Source: Brachyspira hampsonii 30446 | Lineage (GTDB): Bacteria > Spirochaetota > Brachyspiria > Brachyspirales > Brachyspiraceae | DNA: 64,000 bases | Direction of reading: 5' to 3' | Assembly (NCBI RefSeq): GCF_000316195.1 | Contig: NZ_JH994111.1 | Location: forward strand, 245,605-309,604 | In this document: piece by piece, positions 36,619 to 37,364 of the stretch | Position numbering within the stretch: position 1 is the stretch's first letter | Layout of the letters: each line of letters starts with the position of its first letter | Notes under the pieces: generated by a model | Database searches by the model: none | Told to the model about the DNA's origin: nothing | What the model saw: only the letters and a program-made list of their open reading frames with translations | Made by a program: the position numbers and the translations under genes

Positions 36619-36960
36619 TTATAAATTTTCTTTTAATAACTTGATGATTTCTTCCTTGCTTAATACTTTACCATAAGAAAGAACTTTATCATCCAATACC
36701 AAAGCAGGAGTTGACATTACTCCATACGAAGCGATTTCAGCCATATCTTCTACATATTTAATTGCCAAATCAAGTTTAGCTTCTTCTATAGCAGCTATTG
36801 TATTTTCTTCTAATTTTTGACAATTAGAGCATCCTGTTCCAAGTATTTTAACTCTAGCCTCTATAGGCGGATCTTGTTTTATTTCCTCTTCAACGAAGGG
36901 ATTAATAGAAGGACCTCAGCCGCAGCCTCCTCTTCCAAATAGAATATCTCTTAATGACAT
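36619..36960 (-). CDS. Thioredoxin-like selenoprotein (TGA decoded as Sec at codon 15)
   Basis: Read from ATG 36960-36958 with a GGAGA ribosome site 5 bp upstream, the frame runs MSLRDILFGRGGCG, then TGA at 36918-36916, then 98 further codons to TAA. After the TGA the protein is a redox-active-disulfide (thioredoxin_3) domain: VKILGTGCSNCQKLEENT, the conserved cis-Pro region VMSTPALVLDDKVLSYGKVLS, and a helical end. It aligns throughout with the neighbouring intact gene at 37450. The TGA is preceded by Cys-Gly, giving a GCGU motif, and is followed by a SECIS-type hairpin. I therefore read TGA as selenocysteine, total 113 residues. A plain nonsense mutation is the alternative but does not explain the hairpin or the same pattern in the next gene. 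Confidence 0.82.
36885..36900 (-). promoter_or_regulatory. Putative bacterial SECIS hairpin (last thioredoxin-like gene)
   Basis: Minus strand: CCCTTC, loop GTT, GAAGaGG with one bulged A, plus a closing T-A pair. The apical loop starts with G, exactly 22 nt after the TGA. This fits the bacterial SECIS rules (loop of 3-14 nt, G within its first two positions, 16-37 nt from UGA). Confidence 0.72.
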
Positions 36961-37046
36961 ATTTATCTCCTTTTATTTTATTAATTAAAAATTATTTTCT
37001 AAAAGTAAAACAATTTTTATATTAATTACTAATTTTTTTATATAAT

Positions 37047-37364
37047 TTATAATTTTTCTTTTAGAATACTAACTATTCTATCTTTATCTAATACTTCTCC
37101 ATAAGATATTAGTTCATCATTAACTATAAGAGCGGGTAAAGTCATAACTCCGTAATAAGACATACTTCCTTTACTGTCTGTATATTTTATTGATAAATCC
37201 AAATCCAATTCTAATATAGCCTTCCTCAAATTTCCAAGCATATCTAGAGAGTTTTTATCATCATTTCCTAAAAGAAGTATTTTTTCTATTTCTCTTTCTA
37301 TACCCTCCTCCTCTAGAGGGTCTGGCAAACAGCCTCAGCCGAATTGCATTCTATTTATAGCCAT
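37047..37364 (-). CDS. Thioredoxin-fold selenoprotein (TGA decoded as Sec at codon 10)
   Basis: Read from ATG 37364-37362, with TTGGAGG 6 bp upstream, the frame is MAINRMQFG, TGA at 37337-37335, then GCLPDPLEEEG and on to TAA at 37047, 105 residues. The domain after the TGA keeps the thioredoxin_3 fold landmarks (YYGVMTLPALIVNDELISYGEVLD), but the usual CxxC is replaced by LLGNDDKNS. Only the N-terminal Sec-Gly-Cys remains as a redox or metal-binding motif. A gene model starting downstream at the TTG just past the TGA would have no ribosome site and would lose this motif. A SECIS-type hairpin follows the TGA at the same distance as in the next gene. Confidence 0.8.
37302..37321 (-). promoter_or_regulatory. 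Putative bacterial SECIS hairpin (middle thioredoxin-like gene)
   Basis: Minus strand: ACCCTC pairs with GAGGGT, extended by a U-G pair, leaving the loop AGAGGA. The G at loop position 2 is 22 nt after the TGA, the same spacing as in the other selenoprotein gene. Confidence 0.75.

Follow-up and report, generated by a model that had tools for sequence, protein, structure and literature searches.

We describe two tandem thioredoxin-like genes, here called Sec1 and Sec2, in a 64,000-nucleotide stretch of the Brachyspira hampsonii 30446 genome (contig NZ_JH994111.1, positions 245,605 to 309,604; hereafter the window), each of which is crossed by an in-frame TGA codon. The sequence data make it highly probable that selenocysteine (Sec; U in motifs) is inserted at both UGA codons, and we assign a probability of roughly 50% to the combined reading in which Sec1 and Sec2 are Sec-decoded and also take part in ArsP-type efflux, a role that we infer. 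Each gene has a ribosome site (AAGGAG in Sec2 and GGAGG in Sec1), an ATG, and a frame that remains open past the TGA as far as a TAA, and the thioredoxin domain PF13192 was recognized in both translations (88.1 bits for Sec2 and 37.1 bits for Sec1; cut-off, 24.8). This succession of ribosome site, ATG, TGA (codon 15 or codon 10), and intact thioredoxin-like frame had been put forward in the original prediction, made from the letters of the window, and all of its parts were seen. On the motifs, a correction was required: Sec1 carries UxC, not CxU, in its N-terminal region, and its thioredoxin domain has lost the CXXC. Read with the standard code, Sec1 was reduced to a 93-amino-acid frame that opens at a TTG lacking a ribosome site, and Sec2 yielded no open reading frame (ORF) of at least 60 amino acids, exactly the kind of annotation failure that had been foreseen. 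The pair illustrates how such genes are missed or truncated by ordinary ORF calling.

Conservation of the TGA was examined in 26 genomes of the genus (handles beginning with G denote genomes and those with L denote loci), 24 of which contained the thioredoxin-like family. Assignment to the genus was based on a named locus of nearly identical sequence (L094) and on the published cluster. The TGA was retained at the site in all 23 copies of Sec1 and all 22 copies of Sec2, and the unrelated sense codons that would have spoken against the original prediction were not observed in sister species. All 45 copies thus carry TGA, compared with 3 of the 49 stops that end long frames in the window (TAA, 45/49). 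Pseudogenes or sequencing errors, in which translation would really end at the TGA and the frame beyond it would be dead or start internally, were the least probable of the explanations considered. The frame following the TGA was conserved in 23 and 22 genomes, respectively, the codon was never TAA or TAG, and no start with a ribosome site was present just past the TGA. Three damaged copies elsewhere in the genus would fit decay of this kind, namely, a third paralogue whose frame is intact except for a TAA at codon 9 (G025, L056; nonsense mutation or sequencing error) and one Sec1 (G008, L054) and one Sec2 (G002, L068), each shifted in frame where an A-run close to the 3′ end has lost one base (decay or assembly error); as a general explanation, however, pseudogenization is already refuted by the conservation of frame and codon.

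Hairpins resembling the bacterial Sec insertion sequence (SECIS) were judged by our own rule-based score, which looks for a hairpin shortly after the TGA whose first or second loop base is a G, and one was found in both Sec1 and Sec2. The apical-loop G predicted 22 nucleotides after the TGA was present in both hairpins, as the first loop base (GUU) in Sec2 and as the second (AGAGGA) in Sec1. Scores as high occurred at 0.9% (Sec1) and 1.8% (Sec2) of the coding positions in the window, and an Rfam scan of the window returned one tRNA only and no SECIS family. The hairpins alone are only moderately unusual; conservation is the decisive evidence. In the genus, the hairpin can form in every copy of Sec1 and Sec2, and the position of the loop G shifts between +19 and +25 because codons were gained or lost between the TGA and the stem. 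Pairing of the Sec1 stem was kept at 93.8% among 16 distinct sequences, with five cells changed on both sides of the stem as compared with 1.9 in shuffles (2/500 as high), figures that come from related sequences and are not probabilities. Structures slid along Sec1 paired far less than the true stem. In G012, a Pro-to-Ser and a Gly-to-Ser replacement altered both sides of the stem, and pairing was retained.

The third paralogue, encoded next to Sec1, provided a comparison within the genus. The cysteines noted in its N-terminal region by the original prediction are present in B. hampsonii 30446 (CCCGGSC), but the gene is TGA-encoded in four other species (G002, G011, G014, and G020), in the context SSCG-U-GGSC or, in G014, SSCG-U-AP. 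Tandem Sec genes number three in each of G002, G011, and G020 and two in G014. All four TGA-encoded third paralogues scored 13 with the hairpin CCUUC-AGUU-GAAGG, whose loop G lies at +22, whereas the 14 orthologues with TGC or TGT scored at most 7 by the same rule; the predicted SECIS-like hairpin is gained or lost together with the TGA. In phylogenetic trees, the TGA-encoded copies were scattered, with three changes, the G011 copy grouping with the Cys form from G016 (support, 93/85). This pattern suggests, with moderate support and from few alignment columns, that Sec and Cys were exchanged more than once in this paralogue. No published description of a TGA-encoded third paralogue in these species was found in the accessible portions of the literature.

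Outgroups carried Cys at the position equivalent to Sec. Tails of the CxCGGxC type, in which Cys occupies the Sec column, were often seen in treponemal and clostridial relatives. Among 80 relatives kept from a genome scan of many phyla, TGA occurred at this column only in the Brachyspira one, with no Sec form outside Brachyspira, and the other spirochaete loci read contained no Sec form of the family. Weak TGA flags in four genomes of the phylum table (G311, G045, G212, and G116) were rejected, as they appear to be stops flanking the protein and not Sec sites. One of these genomes, a spirochaete outside the genus (G116, L084), has a tandem MTH895-type pair following a distant ArsP-like permease; the pair lacks TGA and stems from a separate duplication. 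Within the genus, G019 (L071) combines the deepest-branching permease with a single family gene, which is Sec2-like and contains TGA, and the Sec form may be old within the genus. Regarding the correspondence of the two Sec residues, in a MAFFT alignment the Sec1 U fell opposite the first Cys of CxC. An ungapped U-to-U alignment of Sec1 with Sec2 was the best of the shifts tried (score, 16; next best, 14), and the hairpins also lined up in it; on the sequences, this alignment is preferred, not proven.

The machinery encoded by selA, selB, selC, and selD, without which the original prediction would fail, was complete in this genome: SelA (354 bits), SelB (288 bits), SelD (353 bits), and tRNA-Sec (59.3 bits) all exceeded curated cut-offs, and the genes for tRNA-Sec, SelA, and SelB are no more than 5 kb apart. 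All 26 genomes of the genus contained SelA. G001 and G003 kept SelA with no match to the thioredoxin-like family; GrdA with TGA was present in G001, and none was found in G003. In B. hampsonii 30446, GrdA is absent, the TGA-containing form being found in 11 other genomes of the genus, and the GPx and thioredoxin genes contain no TGA; of the few families tested here, none yielded a selenoprotein locus other than the Sec1/Sec2 operon. Near-cognate readthrough of the UGA as Cys or Trp was also considered, given that relatives have Cys at this column and a Cys reading would equally restore the motif. We regard it as very improbable, since the hairpin is confined to copies with a TGA codon, all of the Sec machinery is encoded, and, with no GrdA and no TGA in GPx or thioredoxin genes, Sec1 and Sec2 are the most obvious clients of that machinery found. 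Three sequence features expected of bacterial selenoproteins were found together here: the machinery, an in-frame TGA whose place is taken by Cys in homologues, and the hairpin. Every refutation test named in the original prediction that was run favoured selenoproteins.

The two genes had, however, been called probable undeclared selenoproteins, and the word undeclared did not stand. A search for TGA-containing frames in B. hampsonii had already yielded both thioredoxin-like selenoproteins (Santesmasses et al., 2017; PMC5330540), and on this source the pair has been known since 2017. In every Brachyspira genome available at the time, that study reported two Sec genes clustered with a single Cys gene; it also pointed out the missing CXXC of Sec.1, presented SECIS structures, and documented the annotation failures. 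Sec.1 and Sec.2 are defined by PF13192 with an N-terminal Sec in a three-gene Brachyspira cluster, and this was found here, including the absence of CXXC from Sec1; the genes agree with the published ones in family, genus, cluster, TGA, SECIS, and annotation failure. Two differences were apparent: the third gene is a Cys form in all genomes of the published account, unlike the four TGA-encoded copies above, and the accessible account of the cluster does not mention the ArsR and ArsP_1 genes. A 2026 review (PMC13188914) lists the thioredoxin-like selenoproteins Sec.1 and Sec.2 under PF13192; its table gives CxU for Sec.1 and UxC for Sec.2, which looks swapped relative to the 2017 definition and to the sequences presented here.

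Table 1. Features of the Sec1/Sec2 operon (positions in the window, counted from its first letter)
Feature	Positions	Strand	Description
Sec2, thioredoxin-like selenoprotein gene (predicted)	36619..36960	minus	113 amino acids with TGA read through; N-terminal CxU, CXXC in thioredoxin domain
In-frame TGA of Sec2	36916..36918	minus	codon 15, in GCG-U-G
SECIS-like hairpin of Sec2	36884..36901	minus	stem CCCUUC/GAAG-GG, loop GUU, G at +22
Sec1, thioredoxin-like selenoprotein gene (predicted)	37047..37364	minus	105 amino acids with TGA read through; N-terminal UxC, thioredoxin domain without CXXC
In-frame TGA of Sec1	37335..37337	minus	codon 10, in FG-U-GC
SECIS-like hairpin of Sec1	37302..37321	minus	stem ACCCUC/GAGGGU, G at +22 in loop; two-sided pair changes in relatives
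Third paralogue	37450..37755	minus	all-Cys here: CCCGGSC tail and CXXC; TGA-encoded in four other species
ArsP_1-family permease	37773..38813	minus	PF03773; listed start GTG 38813, possible alternative ATG 38786
ArsR/SmtB-type metalloregulator	38803..39126	minus	NF033788
Promoter-like site upstream of ArsR	39176..39204	minus	TTGACA-17-TATTAT; consensus match only, 11/12
Promoter-like site upstream of Sec1	37393..37420	minus	TTGCAA-16-TATAAT; consensus match only, 10/12
Terminator-like hairpin and T-run downstream of Sec2	36553..36594	minus	from sequence, folded; missed by G+C-rich terminator scan

We then considered the genomic context. The minus-strand gene order is ArsR, ArsP_1 permease, third paralogue, Sec1, and Sec2, and the first two genes were assigned from profile scores (permease, PF03773, 215.6 bits against a cut-off of 32.3; metalloregulator, NF033788, 85.7 bits, above its cut-off). 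The position of ArsR beside a PF03773 permease resembles that in ArsP methylarsenite efflux operons, and ArsP of Campylobacter exports methylarsenite; the match here is by domain family only and does not imply the export function. None of the ORFs listed from 32000 to 42000 was recognized on inspection as ArsB, Acr3, ArsM, ArsC, or ArsA. Distantly related permeases are also tied to Sec in the SaoE/SaoT and SO_0444-type systems, where SaoT is a thioredoxin-like selenoprotein and SO_0444 has UxC (PMC13188914). Membership of the present permease in SaoE or SO_0444 was rejected (104.8 and 107.1 bits against cut-offs of 325 and 300, respectively).

Sec2 and the third paralogue resemble the small MTH895/ArsE-type proteins, since both passed TIGR00412 (99.8 and 92.3 bits; cut-off, 62), and a profile match to the solved structure (PDB ID: 1ILO) was obtained. 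They differ from these proteins in the additional N-terminal Cys/Sec tail of the Brachyspira members. Sec1, which lacks CXXC, scored below the TIGR00412 cut-off (36.7 bits), yet it remained above that of PF13192 and clustered with Sec2 in the tree. Redox-active disulfide protein 2/MTH895-type proteins were listed in ars operons in a 2010 paper; such an association is not new, and a published tie to Sec1/Sec2 was not found in the accessible literature.

The principal alternative, to which we give appreciable but minority credence, accepts Sec1 and Sec2 as selenoproteins and assigns them to general redox or peroxide defence, in which they would pass electrons to other oxidoreductases and their ArsR-permease neighbourhood would be historical in Brachyspira. 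Peroxiredoxins and thioredoxin reductases often adjoin members of the family (PMC5330540), and in G016 Sec1 and Sec2 lie approximately 3 kb away from the other genes. Against a merely historical neighbourhood, the ArsR-ArsP_1-thioredoxin arrangement was found in most loci of the relatives, across many phyla, and the same order was found in nearly all Brachyspira loci read. Three points count against Sec decoding combined with efflux: the second promoter-like site, which precedes Sec1/Sec2, would allow expression apart from the permease and equally suits a general redox role; the PF03773 match does not name the substrate of the permease; and the compared genomes are related, so that the copies are not independent.

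In the reading that we favour, Sec1 and Sec2 are Brachyspira duplicates of a small MTH895/ArsE-type protein, which often has a CxCGGxC-type N-terminal tail. A tail Cys was replaced by Sec in Brachyspira, and the resulting motif is CxU in Sec2 but UxC in Sec1. SelB carrying Sec-tRNA is predicted to bind the hairpin immediately after each UGA, resulting in Sec insertion. If the pair does serve in efflux, ArsR would sense a thiol-reactive metal(loid) or organometal, and the operon would be induced. The Sec/Cys tail could then capture or reduce the compound, or make and break a selenenylsulfide, in a rapid redox or metal(loid)-binding reaction, before passing on the ligand, or electrons, to the CXXC of the thioredoxin domain, which would recycle the tail, and the permease would export the compound. 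Lacking CXXC, Sec1 would act through its tail alone, as a carrier or as a partner of the other two proteins. Because its CXXC was lost while the U and the hairpin were kept in every copy, the sequences point to the tail as the working part of Sec1.

Tentatively, the operon may represent a Sec-dependent metal(loid)/organometal efflux module, in which an ArsR-controlled ArsP-type permease is combined with two or three Sec-bearing carriers, Sec and Cys are exchanged together with the SECIS, and one paralogue without a thioredoxin active site works via its Sec tail; it might be the main reason for keeping the Sec machinery in species without glycine reductase. One genus holds a natural experiment, with third-paralogue orthologues that carry Sec and the RNA signal on one side and Cys without the signal on the other. 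The operon context points to a concrete role, the efflux of thiol-reactive metal(loid)s, for selenoproteins that previously had no assigned role.
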